Of a stretch of 64,000 nt of DNA, positions 44,006 to 53,648 are shown one piece after another. The DNA is from Oscillospiraceae bacterium (GTDB lineage: Bacteria > Bacillota > Clostridia > Oscillospirales > Oscillospiraceae): contig JAAWQS010000003.1 of assembly GCA_022800665.1 (NCBI GenBank), positions 16,828-80,827 of the forward strand, read 5' to 3'. Positions within the stretch are counted from its first letter, which is position 1; each line of letters begins with the position of its first letter. A program made the position numbers and the translations under genes. Below the pieces are notes generated by a model. It ran no database searches. It was not told the DNA's origin and saw nothing but the letters and a program-made list of their open reading frames with translations.

Positions 44006-45079
44006 TTATAAGTAACTCTCAATCCGCTCCAGCTCCCGTGCGGTGCAGGCGTTGACGCCGTCGAAGTCCACGTATGGCACGTAGACCGCCTCCAGAGCGT
44101 CATGGGCGGCTTTTGCTTCCCGCAGAGCCTCCAGTCCCTCCGCCCGCAGGACCTCTACGACGCGCCGTACAAATTTCAGCCTGGATTTATTCCGCTTATA
44201 ATAGGAGCCGGGCATCATCGCGTCCAACCGTACCCGGCGGTAGGCGGGACCGTCGTAGACCATGCCCTCCCGCGATGTCACAAAGGCCAGCCCCAGGTCC
44301 GGCAGCAGCAGATGCTGGATGCGGTCAATATGCTCCGGGTCCGGACAGACGATGGCCCGGTATCCCCGGCTCCGCGCCGCTGCACGGATTTGCTCCAGCA
44401 TCGGCGCGGCAAAGCCAAAGCTGTCCTGCAGCTGGTAGACCTTCGGACACAACGCCGCGGCAGTGTCAAACCGCCAGATGGGCCCCTTGCAGGTCATGCT
44501 CCCCAGAAAGCGGAAGGCGTCCGGCCCGCCAGGACCCTTCCCGCGAATCTCCCGGCCAATGATCCCCTCTGTGCGCCGCAGCAGCTTATCCCCGTCCAGC
44601 CCGCCGGTCATCAGGACGGCAGTGTCGTCCTCAATCTGCCGGGCAGCGCCCAGGGCGCGGTAGGCCCGCTGGTAGGCGGCGGAGACCGCTTTGGTGTGGC
44701 GGATGATGTCGGCCCGTGCCGTCTTGGCGGCGGTGATGTCGTAGAATTCCCCCAGGTTGACATACCGGTCCGCCGCTGCGGGATATTTAGGCTCGATGAC
44801 GTGGGGCGCCGTACCATCCACAATCGCCGTCCGAATCCTTGGGATATGCACGCCGTCCAGGGATTTCGGGTCTCCGGAGCAATAAAAATACTCCACCTGC
44901 TCCCCCCGCTGCTCCATAGCCTGACCGATCCGCCTCATCATTGTTGATTTGCCCGCACCGGGCCCGCCTTTCAGCACCAGCAGGTCGTGGTGGTCCTCCG
45001 GCGTACAGAATTCACCGAAAAGATTCTGAAATCCCCGTCCGCTGTTGGCGCCCAGGAAAAAATGTGTGGTTTTTGTCAT
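44006..45079 (-). CDS. P-loop ATPase of unknown function (PRK06851-like)
   Basis: HHDLLVLKGGPGAGKSTMMRRIGQAMEQRG Walker A; YFYCSGDPKSLDGVHIPRIRTAIVDGTAPHVIEP. Confidence 0.8.
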   Translation of the reverse strand: MTKTTHFFLGANSGRGFQNLFGEFCTPEDHHDLLVLKGGPGAGKSTMMRRIGQAMEQRGEQVEYFYCSGDPKSLDGVHIPRIRTAIVDGTAPHVIEPKYPAAADRYVNLGEFYDITAAKTARADIIRHTKAVSAAYQRAYRALGAARQIEDDTAVLMTGGLDGDKLLRRTEGIIGREIRGKGPGGPDAFRFLGSMTCKGPIWRFDTAAALCPKVYQLQDSFGFAAPMLEQIRAAARSRGYRAIVCPDPEHIDRIQHLLLPDLGLAFVTSREGMVYDGPAYRRVRLDAMMPGSYYKRNKSRLKFVRRVVEVLRAEGLEALREAKAAHDALEAVYVPYVDFDGVNACTARELERIESYL

Positions 45080-45305
45080 GGCGTACCCTCCTGCTTCAAA
45101 TTTCTCTCCCCACAATATGCGGCAAATAAACCAAGTGACAGCGTCAGTTATCAGAGGACAACCGCTAAAATGCACAAAAAAAAGATGGAAACTTCCACAT
45201 TGTTGCCATTGAGTTTTTAGGAAAGGAATGGTAAAATAAGTGCGATCGAAGACGGTGGGGCTGATATCCCGCCAGCTTTGCAAAATTTGAGGAGGGCATA
45301 CTAAA

Positions 45306-46658
45306 ATGAATGCTTATGTCGCCAGCGTAATTGAGAACGTCAAAAAGAAACACGGCAATGAGCCGGAGTTTGTTCAGACCGTGGAGGAAGTCTTCTCTTC
45401 CATCTCCCCCGTAATGGACAAGCACCCTGAGTACGAGAAGGCCGACCTGCTCAACCGCATGGTGGAGCCGGAGCGGATGTTTACCTTCCGTGTGGTGTGG
45501 ATGGACGACAAGGGCGATTATCATACCAATATCGGCTACCGCTGCCAGTTCAACGGCGCAATCGGTCCCTACAAGGGCGGCCTGCGCTTCCAGCCCAATG
45601 TCTACCCCGGTATCATCAAGTTCCTGGGCTTTGAGCAGATCTTCAAGAACAGTCTGACCGGACTGCCCATCGGCGGCGGCAAGGGCGGCGCGGACTTCGA
45701 TCCCACCGGCAAGTCCGATGCTGAGATTATGCGCTTCTGCCAGAGCTTCATGACCGCTCTGTACCGCTACATCGGGCCCGACATCGACGTCCCCGCCGGC
45801 GACATGGGCGTGGGTGGCCGGGAGATCGGTTATCTGTACGGTCAGTACCGCCGCCTCAAGGGCGTGTGGGAGAACGGTGTGCTCACCGGCAAGGGCTTCA
45901 GCTACGGCGGCAGCCTGACCCGTCCTGAGGCTACCGGCTACGGCGCTATGTATTACCTGCAGGAAGTGCTCAAGCACGAGGGCGAGGACATCAAGGGCAA
46001 GACCATTGCCTGCGCCGGCTTCGGCAACGTGACCTGGGGCATCTGCAAGAAGGCCCACCACCTGGGCGCAAAGGTCGTGACCCTGTCCGGTCCCGACGGC
46101 TACATCTACGATCCCGACGGCGTGTCCTCCTCCATGGAGAAGGTGGACTACCTGGTGACTATGCGCAACTCTGGCCGCAACAAGGTGAAGGACTACGCCG
46201 ACAAGTTCGGCTGCGAGTTCCATCCCGGCGAGAAGCCCTGGGGCGTCAAGGCTGACGTCATCATGCCCTCCGCCATGCAGAACGACGTGCATATGGAGCA
46301 CGCCCAGCAGATCGCGGCCAATGGCATCAAGTACTACATCGAAGTCGCCAATATGCCCACTACCAACGACGCGCTGCAGTTCCTGATGAGCCAGCCCAAC
46401 ATGATCGTGGCCCCCTCCAAGGCCGTCAACGCCGGCGGCGTGGGCGTGTCCGCTCTGGAGATGAGCCAGAACAGCGAGCGTCTGGTGTGGACCGCTGAGG
46501 AAGTGGACGCCCAGCTGCACAAGATGATGGAGAACATCCACCGCGTGTCCATGGAAGCCGCTGAGGAATACGGCCTGGGTTACAACCTGGTTGCCGGCGC
46601 CAACATCGCAGGCTTCAAGAAGATTGCCGAGGCCATGATGGAGCAGGGCGTCTTCTAA
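45306..46658 (+). CDS. gdhA: NADP-specific glutamate dehydrogenase
   Basis: YKGGLRFQPNVYPGIIKFLGFEQIFKNSLTGLPIGGGKGG. Confidence 0.97.
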   Translation: MNAYVASVIENVKKKHGNEPEFVQTVEEVFSSISPVMDKHPEYEKADLLNRMVEPERMFTFRVVWMDDKGDYHTNIGYRCQFNGAIGPYKGGLRFQPNVYPGIIKFLGFEQIFKNSLTGLPIGGGKGGADFDPTGKSDAEIMRFCQSFMTALYRYIGPDIDVPAGDMGVGGREIGYLYGQYRRLKGVWENGVLTGKGFSYGGSLTRPEATGYGAMYYLQEVLKHEGEDIKGKTIACAGFGNVTWGICKKAHHLGAKVVTLSGPDGYIYDPDGVSSSMEKVDYLVTMRNSGRNKVKDYADKFGCEFHPGEKPWGVKADVIMPSAMQNDVHMEHAQQIAANGIKYYIEVANMPTTNDALQFLMSQPNMIVAPSKAVNAGGVGVSALEMSQNSERLVWTAEEVDAQLHKMMENIHRVSMEAAEEYGLGYNLVAGANIAGFKKIAEAMMEQGVF

Positions 46659-46684
46659 GAAATATTTACCCTTTAATCAGTCAG

Positions 46685-46712
46685 GAGCGCCCCAAGGCAG
46701 CTTGGGGCGCTC
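46685..46712 (+). terminator. Terminator of gdhA
   Basis: GAGCGCCCCAAG-GCAG-CTTGGGGCGCTC. Confidence 0.8.
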
Positions 46713-46761
46713 TTAGCATCTCGCTCTATCCGACAGGACAATAAATAGGAGGACCCCCGCT

Positions 46762-48090
46762 ATGAATATCCAAACGATCCTTGAAAAAGCCCCCATTCTG
46801 GAGCAGGTACGCGCCGGGACCGAAACGCTCTGGCTCAATCCCCACAAGACTAACAGCACGGCCAGCCCGCAGGACATTCCCCTCACGGTCCGGGATATCG
46901 CGGACGCGGAGGCCCGGCTGCAGCGGTTCGCTCCCTTTCTCCAACTCCGCTTCCCTGAGACCAGAGCCAGAAACGGACTGATCGAGTCCCCCCTGTCCCC
47001 TATCCCCAACATGCAGGCCCGGCTGAACGAATCATACGCCGCAAAACTGCCGGGCCGCTTGCTGCTCAAGCAGGACAGCCATCTGGCGATTGCCGGGTCC
47101 ATCAAGGCCCGCGGCGGTATTTACGAAGTGCTCAAACACACCGAGGACCTGGCTTTGGAACACGGCTTCCTCATGCCCGGCGACAGCTACGAAAAGCTGG
47201 CGGACCCCCACAGCCATGATTTCTTCAGCAGCTATACCATTCAGGTCGGGTCCACCGGCAACCTGGGTATGAGCATCGGCATCATGGCGGCGGCAGTGGG
47301 GTTTCATGCGGTGGTCCATATGTCCGCGGACGCCCGGCAGTGGAAAAAAGACCTGCTGCGCAGTCACGGCGTGACGGTGCTGGAGTACGGCGCGGATTAC
47401 AGCGAGGTGGTGAAACAGGGGCGGCGGCTGTCCGACGAGGACCCCCGCAGTTATTTTGTGGACGACGAAAAATCGGTGGACCTGTTTCTGGGCTACGCCG
47501 TGGCAGCCCGGCGTCTGGCGGCGCAGTTGGAGCGGCTGCAGATTGCCGTGGACGGAGACCATCCGCTGTTTGTGTACCTCCCCTGCGGCGTCGGCGGCGC
47601 GCCGGGCGGCATCACCTTCGGCCTGAAGCAGCTGTACGGCGAGAATGTCCACTGCTTCTTTGTAGAACCGGTGCAGGCTCCGTGTATGCTGGCGGGCATG
47701 GCCTCCGGACTGCATGAGCAGATTTCCGTGCAGGACATCGGGCTGACAGGCCGGACCCATGCGGATGGTCTGGCGGTGGGGCGTCCCTCCGGGCTGGTGG
47801 GCCGGATGATGGAGCATATGCTCAGCGGAGAATTCACCGTCCGGGACAGCCGTCTCTATGACTATCTCCGCGACCTGCTGGAGACAGAGGGAATTTTCCT
47901 GGAACCCAGCGCCTGTGCCGCCTTCCAGGGTCCGGCCCGGCTGTTTGGCTGCGAGGCGGGACGGCGTTATCTGGATGACAACGGGCTGACCGGCCATATG
48001 GACCAGGCTGTCCACATCGCCTGGGCGACAGGCGGAAATATGGTGCCGGAGGCGGTTCGGGAGGAGTATATAGGGACCCATTTGGATTGA
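46762..48090 (+). CDS. dsdA: D-serine ammonia-lyase
   Basis: LLLKQDSHLAIAGSIKARGGIYEVLKHTEDLALE, YTIQVGSTGNLGMSIGIM. Confidence 0.95.
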   Translation: MNIQTILEKAPILEQVRAGTETLWLNPHKTNSTASPQDIPLTVRDIADAEARLQRFAPFLQLRFPETRARNGLIESPLSPIPNMQARLNESYAAKLPGRLLLKQDSHLAIAGSIKARGGIYEVLKHTEDLALEHGFLMPGDSYEKLADPHSHDFFSSYTIQVGSTGNLGMSIGIMAAAVGFHAVVHMSADARQWKKDLLRSHGVTVLEYGADYSEVVKQGRRLSDEDPRSYFVDDEKSVDLFLGYAVAARRLAAQLERLQIAVDGDHPLFVYLPCGVGGAPGGITFGLKQLYGENVHCFFVEPVQAPCMLAGMASGLHEQISVQDIGLTGRTHADGLAVGRPSGLVGRMMEHMLSGEFTVRDSRLYDYLRDLLETEGIFLEPSACAAFQGPARLFGCEAGRRYLDDNGLTGHMDQAVHIAWATGGNMVPEAVREEYIGTHLD

Positions 48091-48119
48091 TTGCGGCATC
48101 TCAAACAGAAAACAGCGCA

Positions 48120-48215
48120 AGGATAAAAACACATCCCGGTCGGTAGTCCGGGAGCGGGCGCACGGCCCGTCAGTAACCTGCCTCCTTTGGTTGTCCGTTC
48201 CTTGCTGGAGAAATA
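48120..48215 (+). promoter_or_regulatory. Candidate yjdF-motif riboswitch leader
   Basis: AAAAACACATCCCGGTCGGTAGTCCGGGAGCGGGCGCACGGCCCGTCAGTAACCTGCC with hairpins CCCGG/CCGGG and CGGGC/GCCCG, in the leader of a YjdF-family gene. Confidence 0.65.
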
Positions 48216-48232
48216 AAAAGGAGGAACATCCC

Positions 48233-48643
48233 ATGGAAACAGCGCAGGCCAGACTGACCGTACTCTTCGAGGCCCCCTTCTGGGTGGGGCTATTCGAGCG
48301 GGAATCCGAGGGCCGCTACAGCGTATGCAAGGTTACATTTGGTGCGGAACCGAAGGACTGCGAGGTCTACCAGTACCTGCTGGACCACTGGCACACCCTG
48401 GCCTTCAGCCCGGCTCTGACCACCCGCCCCCCGGACACCCGTCCCGTCAATCCCAAGCGGCGGAACCGGCTGATCCAGAAACAGGACGGCATCGGTACGA
48501 AGGCCCAGCAAGCGTTAAAGCTCCAGCAGGAACAGGGAAAATTGGCCCGCAGGTCCCGCACCCGGCAGCAGCGTGAGGAGGAACAGGAGCGGAAATTCCG
48601 GCTTTTGCAGCAGAAGAAAAAAGAGAAACGCCGGGGCCGTTAG
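48233..48643 (+). CDS. yjdF: YjdF/DUF2992 family protein
   Basis: ARLTVLFEAPFWVGLFERESEGRYSVCKVTFGAEPKDCEVYQYLLDHW and basic C-terminal tail. Confidence 0.88.
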   Translation: METAQARLTVLFEAPFWVGLFERESEGRYSVCKVTFGAEPKDCEVYQYLLDHWHTLAFSPALTTRPPDTRPVNPKRRNRLIQKQDGIGTKAQQALKLQQEQGKLARRSRTRQQREEEQERKFRLLQQKKKEKRRGR

Positions 48644-48670
48644 CCACCAATAATTTTGTGCATCCGATTC

Positions 48671-48699
48671 TTGCAATTCACGGCTGTTTGTGCTAGACT
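48671..48699 (+). promoter_or_regulatory. Predicted sigma-A promoter for Cys/His-rich protein gene
   Basis: TTGCAA-17 nt-TAGACT. Confidence 0.55.
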
Positions 48700-48751
48700 G
48701 TATGTATAGTATCCCGCCTAATCCGGCAGGGAAGTAAAGGAGGAAAATCTA

Positions 48752-49288
48752 ATGCAGCATACAAGACGGCTGACCACAGGAGCAGTGGCAGTCCTGACAG
48801 CCCTGATGCTCATGCTCCCGGCGTCGGCCCACGGCGGACGCCACCATCAAACTGCCGCCCAGACTCCTGTGACCAACTGCGGCGTCTGTGCCGTGGAGAC
48901 CTGTCATACCAGCGGACGGCATACTCACAGCGGTGTGACCTACTGCGGTTACGACCATACCAACGGCATCTGCAATGGTACCTGCGCGGCCCTGTGCGCC
49001 GTAGAGGACTGCACCGTTACCGGACGGCACGTCCACAGCAAGACCACCTACTGCGGCTACGACCATGCCGGCGGGTTCTGCGACGGTACCTGCGCGGCTC
49101 TGTGCGGCGTGTCCGGCTGCACCGCTGCCGGACGGCACACCCACAGCGGCGTGACCTACTGCGGCTATGACCACGCGGGCGGGTTCTGCGACGGCGCCTG
49201 CACCGCTATTCTGGCTGCGCAGGCCGCTGCAAAGGCTGCGCCCGCTGTGACCGCCGGAGGATGCGGCCACCACGGCCACCACTGCTGA
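48752..49288 (+). CDS. Secreted Cys/His-rich repeat protein of unknown function
   Basis: Signal peptide MQHTRRLTTGAVAVLTALMLMLPASA, three 36-aa repeats, C-terminal GGCGHHGHHC. Confidence 0.85.
   Translation: MQHTRRLTTGAVAVLTALMLMLPASAHGGRHHQTAAQTPVTNCGVCAVETCHTSGRHTHSGVTYCGYDHTNGICNGTCAALCAVEDCTVTGRHVHSKTTYCGYDHAGGFCDGTCAALCGVSGCTAAGRHTHSGVTYCGYDHAGGFCDGACTAILAAQAAAKAAPAVTAGGCGHHGHHC
48887..49210 (+). repeat. Three tandem 108-bp (36-aa) coding repeats
   Basis: Units 48887-48994, 48995-49102, 49103-49210; consensus CxVxxCtxxGRHtHSgvTYCGYDHagGfCdGtCaal. Confidence 0.92.
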
Positions 49289-49293
49289 AGGCG

Positions 49294-50028
49294 ATGAAGA
49301 AGGCCGCATTTATCACCGGCGGCAGCCGGGGAATTGGCCGCGCTATCGCCGTGCGCCTGGCGGCGGAGGGCTATGCAGTGGGGATCGACTACCTGCATTC
49401 CCAGGAGCAGGCGGAGGCTTTGGTCAAGGAACTGCGCCTCCAGGGCGCGGATGCCCTGGCCGTCCAGGGGGACGTGGCGGACCGGGAGGCCATTACCGCC
49501 GCCATCCATTTGGTGGAGGCTTCTCTGGGTCCCATCGAGGCGCTGGTCAACAACGCGGGCATCGCTGCGCAGAGCCAGTTCCAGGATATCTCCGACGCCT
49601 TCTGGCACAGAATCTTTGCGGTCAATGTGGACGGCGCGTTCCACACCATCCAGGCGGTTCTGCCCCACATGATTCAGGTGAAGTCCGGCAGCATCATCAA
49701 TATTTCATCCATCTGGGGACAGCGGGGCGCGTCCTGCGAAGCGGCCTACTCCGCGACAAAAGCGGCTGTCATCGGCCTCACCCGGTCCCTGGCCATGGAG
49801 CTGGCCCCCTCCGGTATCCGGGTCAACTGTATTGCCCCCGGCGTGATTTTCACCGACATGGTGAAGGTACTGGGAGACGAGACGCTGGCGATGCTGGCCG
49901 AACAGACGCCCATGGGACGGCTGGGAACACCGGAGGATATCGCTAAACTGGCGGCTTTCCTGGCCGGGGAGAGCGCGTCCTTTGTCACCGGACAGGTGAT
50001 CACAGCGGACGGCGGTTTCATCGTGTAA
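49294..50028 (+). CDS. SDR-family oxidoreductase (FabG-like)
   Basis: KAAFITGGSRGIGRAIAVRLA, NNAGIAAQSQF, YSATKAAVIGLTRSLAMELA. Confidence 0.93.
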   Translation: MKKAAFITGGSRGIGRAIAVRLAAEGYAVGIDYLHSQEQAEALVKELRLQGADALAVQGDVADREAITAAIHLVEASLGPIEALVNNAGIAAQSQFQDISDAFWHRIFAVNVDGAFHTIQAVLPHMIQVKSGSIINISSIWGQRGASCEAAYSATKAAVIGLTRSLAMELAPSGIRVNCIAPGVIFTDMVKVLGDETLAMLAEQTPMGRLGTPEDIAKLAAFLAGESASFVTGQVITADGGFIV

Positions 50029-50188
50029 CGCCCCAATCGCATCTATCCTTTCAGCCACTCGAAGAACACAGCTGGTTTTTCGGGTGGCTCTTTTCATTAT
50101 TTTTTTCTGGGGCGGAACATCCCCGGCTGCTTTGCGTCTATATCTGATAGAGGCCCGCACTTGCAAAAATAAAAAGGAGGAAGTTGTG

Positions 50189-51151
50189 ATGAAGATGAAA
50201 AAGAAGTTCCTGTCTGTCCTGCTGGCCCTGCTGCTCCTGTCCCTGACCGCCTGCGGCGGCGGTCCTTCCCTCTCCGGAGGGGACACTGGTCCGTCTTCCA
50301 GCGATTCCGTTTCCTCATCCAACCAGGAGAATGGCTGGGGCGGCGGCGAGTTCTATGACGACGCTGCAGCGGAGGTGGCCGCCAGCGAGGACGCTGGCGG
50401 CGGCAGTATCCTCCCCGCCAACACAAAGCTGATCTACTCCGCCGACATCGCCATGGAAACCACTGAATTCGACGCCGCCGAGCAGTCGATCAGCCGCATT
50501 GTCGAGAACCTGGACGGCTGGTTCGAGAGCCGCAGTATCTACCAGGGCGGCGGGTCCCGCAGCCTGCGGTGTACCGTGCGGGTCCCGGCCAAATCCTTCC
50601 AGTCCTTTTTGGAACAGGCGGGACAAGCCGCCCACGTTACCAGCCGGGACGAGTACACCGAGGACGTCAGCGAGGCGTACTACGACCAGGAATCCCGCCT
50701 GGTCACACAGCGGACCAAGCTGGACCGCCTCCATGCCCTCCTCGCCCAAGCCACGGAGATGGAGGCCATTATTTCCCTGGAAAACGCCATCAGCGACACG
50801 GAGCTGGAGATCGAACAGCTCACCGGCAGTCTGCGCAAATATGACAGCCTGGTGGGTTACTCCACCATCACCCTGCGGCTGGAAGAGGTCTACAAGCTTT
50901 CCACCGACGAGGAGGTTGCCGTCACCTTCGGCCAGCGGCTGGGCAGAGCCTTTGCCCTGGGCCTGCGGCGGGGCGTCAGCGGCCTGGAGGAATTCAGCAT
51001 CGCTGCGGCCCAGAACTGGTTCAACCTTCTGATTCTGGCTGCTATCGCAGCGGCGGCGGTTCTGTTCCTCCGCCGGAGACGGAAGCGGGTGAGCGCGCCC
51101 CGGCCCCCCAAGCCGCCTCAGCCGCCGAAACCGCCGGAGTCCAAAGAATAA
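50189..51151 (+). CDS. DUF4349 domain lipoprotein
   Basis: Lipobox LLLLSLTACGGG; SADIAMETTEFDAAEQSISRIVENLDGWFESRSIYQGG; C-terminal TM. Confidence 0.88.
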   Translation: MKMKKKFLSVLLALLLLSLTACGGGPSLSGGDTGPSSSDSVSSSNQENGWGGGEFYDDAAAEVAASEDAGGGSILPANTKLIYSADIAMETTEFDAAEQSISRIVENLDGWFESRSIYQGGGSRSLRCTVRVPAKSFQSFLEQAGQAAHVTSRDEYTEDVSEAYYDQESRLVTQRTKLDRLHALLAQATEMEAIISLENAISDTELEIEQLTGSLRKYDSLVGYSTITLRLEEVYKLSTDEEVAVTFGQRLGRAFALGLRRGVSGLEEFSIAAAQNWFNLLILAAIAAAAVLFLRRRRKRVSAPRPPKPPQPPKPPESKE

Positions 51152-51164
51152 ATCCGCCCCTATA

Positions 51165-51204
51165 AAACCGGCGGAGGAGAACAATTGCTCTCCTCCGCCG
51201 GTTT
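51165..51204. terminator. Bidirectional terminator hairpin
   Basis: AAACCGGCGGAGGAGA-ACAATTGC-TCTCCTCCGCCGGTTT perfect inverted repeat. Confidence 0.85.
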
Positions 51205-51215
51205 CTTCAGGTTCC

Positions 51216-52586
51216 TTAACCAGGAATATTCGTCAAAACATATTTCAGTACAAACAGGACCGCGATGATATACACCAGAATGGGAACTTCCTTGGCCTTG
51301 CCGCGGGCGGCCTTGATAATGCTGTAGGAGATAAAGCCAAAGCCGATGCCGTCGGAGATAGAGTAAGCAAAGGCCATCATAGAGATGGTAAGGAATGCGG
51401 GGACCGCACACTCGAAATCATCCCAGGCAATGCTGGCCGCGCTCTTCATCATCAGCACGCCCACGATAATCAACGCCGGAGCGGTAGCCGCAGAGGGAAT
51501 GATGCCCGCCACAGGGGCCAGCAGGATGGCCAGGAGGAACATGAAGCCCACGGTGATAGAGCTGAGACCGGTCCGTGCGCCCTCGGAGATACCGGTGGAG
51601 GACTCGACGAAGGTGGTGACGGTGGAGGTACCCAGACACGCGCCGCAGCAGGTGGCTACCGCATCGGCAATCAGGGCGCGGTCGCCGCCGGGCAGATTGC
51701 CGTGGCGGTCGGTCATACCGGCGTTGGTAGCGGTACCGATGAGGGTGCCCACGGTGTCAAAGCAGTCCACCAGCGCAAAGCTGACAACGGCGGTAAGCAG
51801 GGGCAGGAAGCCCTTTGCCATCACGCCGCCCAGATCCAGCTTCATAAACAGAGGGGCCAGGGTGATGCCCTCGGTGGTGATGTTGTCGGGAATGCTGGTC
51901 ACGCCCATGGGCAGGCCGATGAGAGTTGTGAGCACGATACCGATGACAATCGCGCCTTTGACCTTGAAGCACATGAGAATAGCAGTAATCAGCAGGCCGA
52001 TGATGCACAGCAGGCCCGCCATGTTGACGGCCCGCACATCGCCGTCCATATACGAGAAGTTCAGGGCAGGCACCGCGCCGCCGATGGAGATCAGGTTTAC
52101 GTTCAGGAGTCCGATGAAGGCGATGAACAGGCCGATTCCGGCGGAAATCGCGTTTTTCAGGAAAGCCGGGATCGAGGCGATGATCTTACTGCGGAGCGGG
52201 GACACGGCAATGATGAGGAACAGGACGCCGCTGAGGAGCACGATTGCCAGGCCCTCCTGCCAGGTGTAGCCCATGCTCAGGCACACCGTATAGGTGAAAA
52301 AGGCGTTGAGTCCCATACCTGGGGCCTGGGCGAAGGGTACGTTTGCCAACAGAGCGGTCAGGAAACAGCCGATGGCGGCAGAGATGCAGGTCGCCACCAG
52401 TACGGGCGCCCACAGTTCTTTGGGCATAGCGGGATAAAAGGGGTTGGCTGCGTCCGCCAGATTGACGCAGAGGGTGTTGGGATTGACAAAGATAATGTAG
52501 GCCATGGCAAAGAACGTGGTGATGCCGCCTACAATCTCTGTCCGGAAGGTACTTCCGCGTTCAGAGATTTTGAAGAACTTGTCCAT
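51216..52586 (-). CDS. NCS2/AzgA-family purine permease
   Basis: TEIVGGITTFFAMAYIIFVNPNTL, GMGLNAFFTYTVC, ALVDCFDTVGTLIGTATNAGM. Confidence 0.93.
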   Translation of the reverse strand: MDKFFKISERGSTFRTEIVGGITTFFAMAYIIFVNPNTLCVNLADAANPFYPAMPKELWAPVLVATCISAAIGCFLTALLANVPFAQAPGMGLNAFFTYTVCLSMGYTWQEGLAIVLLSGVLFLIIAVSPLRSKIIASIPAFLKNAISAGIGLFIAFIGLLNVNLISIGGAVPALNFSYMDGDVRAVNMAGLLCIIGLLITAILMCFKVKGAIVIGIVLTTLIGLPMGVTSIPDNITTEGITLAPLFMKLDLGGVMAKGFLPLLTAVVSFALVDCFDTVGTLIGTATNAGMTDRHGNLPGGDRALIADAVATCCGACLGTSTVTTFVESSTGISEGARTGLSSITVGFMFLLAILLAPVAGIIPSAATAPALIIVGVLMMKSAASIAWDDFECAVPAFLTISMMAFAYSISDGIGFGFISYSIIKAARGKAKEVPILVYIIAVLFVLKYVLTNIPG

Positions 52587-52706
52587 GATTTCTCCTCCTT
52601 TAGATGAAGTTTTGCGGGCTGACTCCTAAAACGTGCAAGTGTATTGTACACGAAAAGGGCAAAAAAGAAAAGAGGCTGGCGTAAAACTGAAAAATATTTG
52701 TAGGAC

Positions 52707-53648
52707 CTAACGAATTTTTTGCTTTTGCTTTGGTAAAATTTTCTGCTGTATGCAAATTCGCTCCCGCACCAGGGCGGCAAACTCCGGCGGCGAGCGAACC
52801 TCCAGCGCCGGCCCGAAGGAGAGGATGCGGATAAGCAGTTCCGTTTCGTCCGCTGGATCGTACCGCAGACGGATTTCATAGAGACGGCTGTCCAGCCGCC
52901 GGGTCACCTTCTCAAAGTGGGAAAAATGCAGCAAAACCCGCTCCAGTCCGTTCCGCTCGTCCCGGAGCAGCAGAACCAGCTCCCGCCGGCGGGGCTTGGG
53001 CAGGCGGAGCTGGCTGGGGTCGTACGGCTCCAGCAGCTGGCAGGCGCAGAGCCGGGAGAGGTTGATGGTACGGAGCCTGCGCTTCCAGAGGGAGGTCAGG
53101 CGGAATTTGTCGTCCTTTTCCGAGTATTCCAGACGGCAGGGTACACATACGCTGGAACGCCGGACTCCGGCGCGGTCATAGAAGCGGAGCAGCAGCATCC
53201 GTTTCTCCCGCAGCGCCTGCAAGACCGTCTGGAAGCAGGCCGCATATACGGCGTCTTCGTAGGGGTCGCCGTCTGTGTACTGGTCGAACAGGACGATGGC
53301 GTCCGGCTCATACAGCGGTTCCACATCCTCCAGACCGGCGGCGCTGGGGGCAAACAGCGCAATGCGCCGGTCCAGCAGCAACGCCTTCAGCCAGCGTTTC
53401 TCCAGGGTGGTCAGGGGCATGGACGGCCTGAAGGTCAGAACTGTCTGCATCTCCCGGTCCAGCAGGGGCCAGGTTCCGTCCTGTAACGCCGCCGGAATCG
53501 AAAGCGCGCTCTCCGCAAAAGCCTTTTCCCGCACAAGCTCTGTCATCCGGCTCCCGGTCAGGCCCCCGGCGGACGCCTCTGTCAGAATCGCGGCTACCAC
53601 GCGGAAATAGCTCCCGTAAATTTCACTGAACAGCATCTCCGCCTCCAT
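52707..53648 (-). CDS. WYL-domain regulator
   Basis: RLTSLWKRRLRTINLSRLCACQLLEPYDP-type WYL region; overlaps upstream WYL gene by 26 nt. Confidence 0.75.
   Translation of the reverse strand: MEAEMLFSEIYGSYFRVVAAILTEASAGGLTGSRMTELVREKAFAESALSIPAALQDGTWPLLDREMQTVLTFRPSMPLTTLEKRWLKALLLDRRIALFAPSAAGLEDVEPLYEPDAIVLFDQYTDGDPYEDAVYAACFQTVLQALREKRMLLLRFYDRAGVRRSSVCVPCRLEYSEKDDKFRLTSLWKRRLRTINLSRLCACQLLEPYDPSQLRLPKPRRRELVLLLRDERNGLERVLLHFSHFEKVTRRLDSRLYEIRLRYDPADETELLIRILSFGPALEVRSPPEFAALVRERICIQQKILPKQKQKIR

Follow-up and report, generated by a model that had tools for sequence, protein, structure and literature searches.

Exported 36-residue Cys/His repeat proteins of Oscillospiraceae and their relatives: candidates for extracellular metal capture

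Introduction

Bacterial metallothioneins, for example those of the PmtA/SmtA type, are not known to be exported or to contain repeats, the familiar ones being cytoplasmic. The Cys/His repeat protein described here is likewise small, rich in Cys and His, and probably able to hold several metal ions per chain. No metallothionein family appeared among the Pfam matches, at E-values up to 10, of this protein or of 18 members of its family. As a functional analogy metallothionein would be the best available, though the repeat protein is exported and modular and appears to have two classes of site.

Three other described systems share some of its features. The CDGSH domain (CISD3, Protein Data Bank chain 6avj; PF09360) contains a comparable C-x8-C-D-G-[SAT]-x segment, and CISD3 likewise has two copies; the repeat protein differs in lacking the first Cys and the terminal His ligands and in having an extra C2H2 half and an export signal. 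C2H2_ASCIZ zinc fingers (PF24757) share the Cys2His2 content, and four of 18 members matched them marginally (best E 0.0015), but the repeat protein has a short C-x5-H-x-H spacing and a second, C3H half, and is secreted and bacterial. BlaI/BlaR1 pairs (Penicillinase_R, PF03965; Peptidase_M56, PF05569) combine a repressor gene with an M56-sensor gene, the layout that we observed at the repeat-gene loci of five congeners and of Parablautia muri. In PMC3356374, the C-terminal part of BlaR1 is described as an extracellular sensor and its L3 loop as a zinc protease. The sensors of the congeners differ from this model by a His cluster in the ectodomain, and a scan of L008, the only complete sensor scanned, reported no penicillin-binding domain.

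Results

The repeat gene and its product

The features of the window, i.e. the whole stretch of 64,000 nucleotides analysed here, are collected in Table 1 together with those of related loci. Re-reading of the sequence agreed with the original prediction on the reading frame and its coordinates, the signal peptide, the three gapless 36-residue repeats and the His-rich C-terminus. The product starts with a signal peptide ending in PASA, followed by HGGRHH, a short linker containing NCGVC, the three units and the tail CGHHGHHC; the N-terminal His cluster, also foreseen, could be placed more precisely, as it begins exactly at the predicted signal-peptidase site, directly after ASA. The mature protein has 152 residues, including 18 Cys and 17 His.

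Table 1. Features of the repeat-gene locus in the window and of related loci in other genomes.
Feature	Position	Strand	Remarks
DUF2992-family gene	48233-48643		immediately upstream of the repeat gene
Ribosome-binding site AGGAGG	48738..48743	+	sequence; 8 nt between the end of AGGAGG and ATG
Cys/His repeat protein gene	48752..49288	+	178 aa; no Pfam/NCBIfam match
Antisense ORF overlapping the repeat gene	48749-49309	-	mirror frame
Signal peptide, residues 1-26	48752..48829	+	sequence motif; predicted cleavage between ASA and H
Mature N-terminus HGGRHH	48830..48847	+	sequence
Repeat 1	48887..48994	+	putative site 1: C46 C51 H57 H59; putative site 2: C65 H69 C74 C78
Repeat 2	48995..49102	+	eight ligand positions as in repeat 1; putative two-site assignment
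Repeat 3	49103..49210	+	eight ligand positions as in repeat 1; putative two-site assignment
C-terminal tail CGHHGHHC	49262..49285	+	sequence; like the HC or HHGHC tails of most members
SDR gene (FabG/YmfI-like)	49294..50028	+	starts 5 nt after the repeat-gene stop codon
Terminator-like stem-loop after SDR	50053..50089	+	1 found versus 1.6 expected by chance
Region with many long mirror ORFs	44006-53648		opposite real genes
BlaI and BlaR1-like M56 sensor genes upstream of the repeat gene	L008:1608-4930, L031:5247-8092, L032:5854-8039, L075:2060-4791, L077:2010-5269		five congeners
BlaI and M56-M23 fusion pair	L002:2515-4649		Parablautia muri
DUF1540 protein gene	L004:5813-6208		adjoins the six-unit member
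Units with diverged or lost C3H half	L092:4796-5218, L006:1235-1336		C2H2 half intact

At the DNA level, Tandem Repeats Finder recovered a 108-nt period with an 80% match, no indels and a score of 311. When the three units were compared with those of G1086, whose protein is the closest orthologue at 70% identity, dN was 0.20 and dS 1.10; selection therefore acts at the protein level and is purifying. The antisense ORF overlapping the gene is a mirror frame of a kind common in this GC-rich DNA. Many such long ORFs lie opposite real genes in the surrounding region, a high-GC effect that misleads longest-ORF gene calls.

An AxA-type signal-peptidase motif is present in all 32 near-complete members, and the residue that follows is His (29 members) or Cys (three members). 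With cleavage sites called by reading the motif, without a trained predictor, the first residue of the mature protein is thus predicted to be His or Cys throughout, a striking consistency. Most members also end in HHC- or HGC-type tails.

Anatomy of the repeat unit

Units were detected by the pattern of their first four ligands, which yielded 86 units from the 32 members. The five Cys and three His per unit that had been noted in the window protein hold family-wide as C1 C6 H12 H14 C20 H24 C29 C33, all eight being kept in 81 of the 86 units, and they form two successive patterns, C-x4-C-x5-H-x-H and C-x3-H-x4-C-x3-C. Across 58 units, C1, C6, H12, H14 and G21 were invariant, C20, H24, C29 and G10 nearly so, and C33 was conserved in > 90%; His positions were conserved as strongly as Cys positions.

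The five incomplete units (unit 1 of L006, unit 3 of L007, unit 1 of L083 and both units of L092), among whose sources is the distant relative G323, keep C1/C6/H12/H14 and have lost some or all of C20/H24/C29/C33. From this pattern of loss, in which only the second ligand set is affected, we infer that each unit comprises two four-ligand sites, C2H2 and C3H. Detection by the first pattern biases the observation that site 1 is kept; a reverse search for site 2 standing alone, without site 1, found none. In L092 and L006 the intact C2H2 half accompanies a lost or diverged C3H half, suggesting that the halves are separable. AlphaFold2 models of the full protein (12 rows) and of tandem units (28 rows) were of low confidence (pLDDT 54 and 60). 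The structure prediction that had been proposed as a check returned a hairpin per unit (RHxH / VTYC) as the only feature and no ligand geometry, and the models neither support nor refute the two-site grouping.

A patchy, accessory family

The window protein matched no family above the curated cut-offs of Pfam and NCBIfam, and 18 members gave marginal, inconsistent Pfam matches only, bearing out the initial impression that the repeat belongs to no named family. A profile search, also suggested at the outset, led to no clear characterized family; its weak CISD3 signal is considered below. The repeat protein is thus a real, previously unlisted family, on which a literature search found no paper.

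Members occur in about 35 genomes, mostly of Oscillospiraceae (among named taxa Lawsonibacter, Oscillibacter, Pseudoflavonifractor and CE91-St43), also of Lachnospiraceae (Parablautia muri, SC0398) and, within the class and phylum, of a small number of further families. The repeat gene is present in 15 of 25 congeners; matches were obtained in 16 of 301 genomes sampled from the window's own family, and evenly drawn class and phylum samples contributed only G323, G856 and G891, the last without confirmation as a readable member. The distribution is therefore patchy, and the family accessory. One of the 16 matches, that of G264 (L027/L044), was rejected since inspection gave no recognizable member. 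A phage or mobile origin was likewise rejected, as IMG/VR viral contigs contain no relative. The survey of copy number across relatives, again part of the original plan, revealed one to six units per protein.

Gene neighbourhood

Two main gene settings were found in the genus, with either an SDR gene starting a few nt downstream of the repeat gene or BlaI and BlaR1-like genes upstream of it. The former applies to the window, where repeat gene and SDR gene are probably co-transcribed, and to G1086, G1087, G274, G1080 and G1081. Of 25 congeners, 24 have one strong SDR match each, mostly without an adjoining repeat gene; because the SDR gene is a core gene that usually lies apart, the pairing says little about function, and we rejected the SDR as a specific partner. 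The DUF2992-family gene was not found beside the relatives examined. Loci of distant members had no neighbour in common, most loci lacked a metal-related neighbour, and visual inspection of the upstream regions of 22 members revealed no obvious shared operator. Beside the six-unit member lies a gene for a Cys-rich DUF1540 protein.

The second setting is absent from the window. It was seen in G185, G029, G1077, G1074 and G1088, where the repeat gene follows the BlaI-like and BlaR1-like M56 genes by ∼6-45 nt. All five linked sensors carry an ectodomain His cluster (e.g. PGHHDEEHGEHRQERRH, AGHHHGDHHQ and SNHHGEDHHEEH), which is missing at the aligned site of three homologous unlinked sensors (G123, the second copy of G029, and G1079); the linked sensors are possibly metal-sensing BlaR1 variants. 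The adjacency is suggestive of a link to the repeat gene, short of proof, because M56 matches are abundant (about 3-15 per genome) and a single event may account for all five cases, which come from one genus. In P. muri, a divergent BlaI and M56-M23 fusion pair adjoins the repeat gene, and the ectodomain of this sensor is an M23 peptidase domain.

Discussion

The ligand-rich repeats could serve either metal binding or disulfide bonding. A disulfide-stabilized extracellular protein with a structural, adhesive or protease-resistant role, in which the His residues are incidental or bind surfaces, would agree with the frequent disulfide bonding of Cys-rich exported repeats, with the even number of Cys in the mature window protein and with the functional DsbA or VKOR of some Clostridia (PMC12453122). 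Even Cys numbers mark disulfide-bonded exported proteins (PMC12453122), but of the 32 members 16 have an odd and 16 an even mature Cys count, and the equally strict conservation of His speaks against an incidental role. A search of the host genome (95.4% complete) that covered VKOR, DsbB and DSBA gave no match for VKOR or DsbB and a single DSBA-family protein, which starts MSIHLKIASDFVCPYC, apparently has no export signal and is apparently cytosolic; an SdbA-like oxidase of the AhpC/TSA type may still be present. Neither the even Cys number across members nor the host machinery expected of a disulfide-rich secreted protein was therefore found. Because of this parity and gene content, complete disulfide pairing appears unlikely, and reduced thiolates, hence metal, are favoured; we regard the disulfide explanation as improbable. 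The earlier argument that five Cys per unit are odd for disulfides is weak by itself, because the protein ends add Cys and bring the window protein to its total of 18; parity across the family is the better version of it. Moreover, the exported proteins of obligate anaerobes tend to lack Cys (PMC12453122), so that the retention of a Cys-rich export by an anaerobe suggests a use for thiolates.

The neighbouring sensors allow another interpretation, i.e. a cell-envelope stress response of the BlaI/BlaR1 type to β-lactam or peptidoglycan signals, in which the repeat protein acts on the wall and zinc is structural only. The adjoining pairs in five congeners, and the different pair in P. muri, would fit; however, M56 genes are abundant enough for the adjacency in P. 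muri to be fortuitous, and both the His cluster of the linked sensors and the L008 scan point away from a penicillin-type signal, which makes this explanation less probable still. That the protein is a precursor cleaved to 36-residue antimicrobial or signalling peptides is very unlikely: an export signal and a varying number of near-identical tandem units would fit such a precursor, but conserved maturation, immunity or transport neighbours are lacking and the unit junction (-AALC-) offers no obvious protease site. Least credible of all is a relationship to CDGSH/mitoNEET domains, which would make this an extracellular iron-sulfur protein. The idea derives from the sole Protein Data Bank signal of the family profile search, CISD3 chain 6avj (E 0.0058), obtained through C-x8-C-D-G-x-C, and C-x8-C-D-G-[SAT]-C indeed occurs 33 times in the family. 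However, none of 32 proteins matches the CDGSH pattern C-x-C-x2-[ST]-x3-P-x-C-D-G-[SAT]-H, every unit counted has Thr or some other residue in place of the first Cys ligand, the His ligand is usually replaced by Cys, and Pfam scans of the window protein and 18 members gave no match to PF09360. The 6avj chain itself reads CDGSC/CDGTC and is apparently an altered CISD3. We therefore rejected CDGSH membership and consider the likeness a resemblance only.

We think it rather likely, from the sequence and comparative evidence, that the family consists of secreted or wall-retained proteins with two sites per unit that capture divalent metal outside the strictly anaerobic cell. The original prediction of an exported metal-binding protein gains indirect support from ligand conservation, the lack of an even-Cys bias, the disulfide machinery sought but not found in the host, and the His-cluster sensors beside the gene in five congeners; metal binding itself we infer. 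After Sec export, the protein would be released or retained in the wall and would bind a divalent transition metal, most likely Zn2+ and possibly Cu or Ni. Each unit would provide a tetrahedral C2H2 site (C1, C6, H12, H14), with its two His on one β-hairpin strand, and a second tetrahedral site of the C3H type (C20, H24, C29, C33), giving six sites in the three-unit window protein, while the His-rich ends, including the His at mature residue 1, may add looser binding. Capacity would then be set by the number of units, and the physiological role may be buffering or detoxification, or else scavenging. In some congeners the adjacent BlaI/BlaR1-like pair probably controls expression, and the ectodomain His cluster may sense the same metal.

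A fuller picture can be offered tentatively and is, in all its parts together, doubtful: a new modular extracellular metal-capture family in gut Clostridia, with two different zinc-type sites per unit, a metal-binding His as the first mature residue and, in some species, induction by a BlaR1-type protease sensor re-purposed, by way of its ectodomain His cluster, for metal instead of β-lactam. A widespread exported family with up to 33 Cys in one member suggests that reduced thiolates are kept outside the cell for metal handling in the gut, where host and microbes compete for metals. Through the linked His-cluster sensors, the idea of a metal-sensing BlaR1 relay is open to direct testing.
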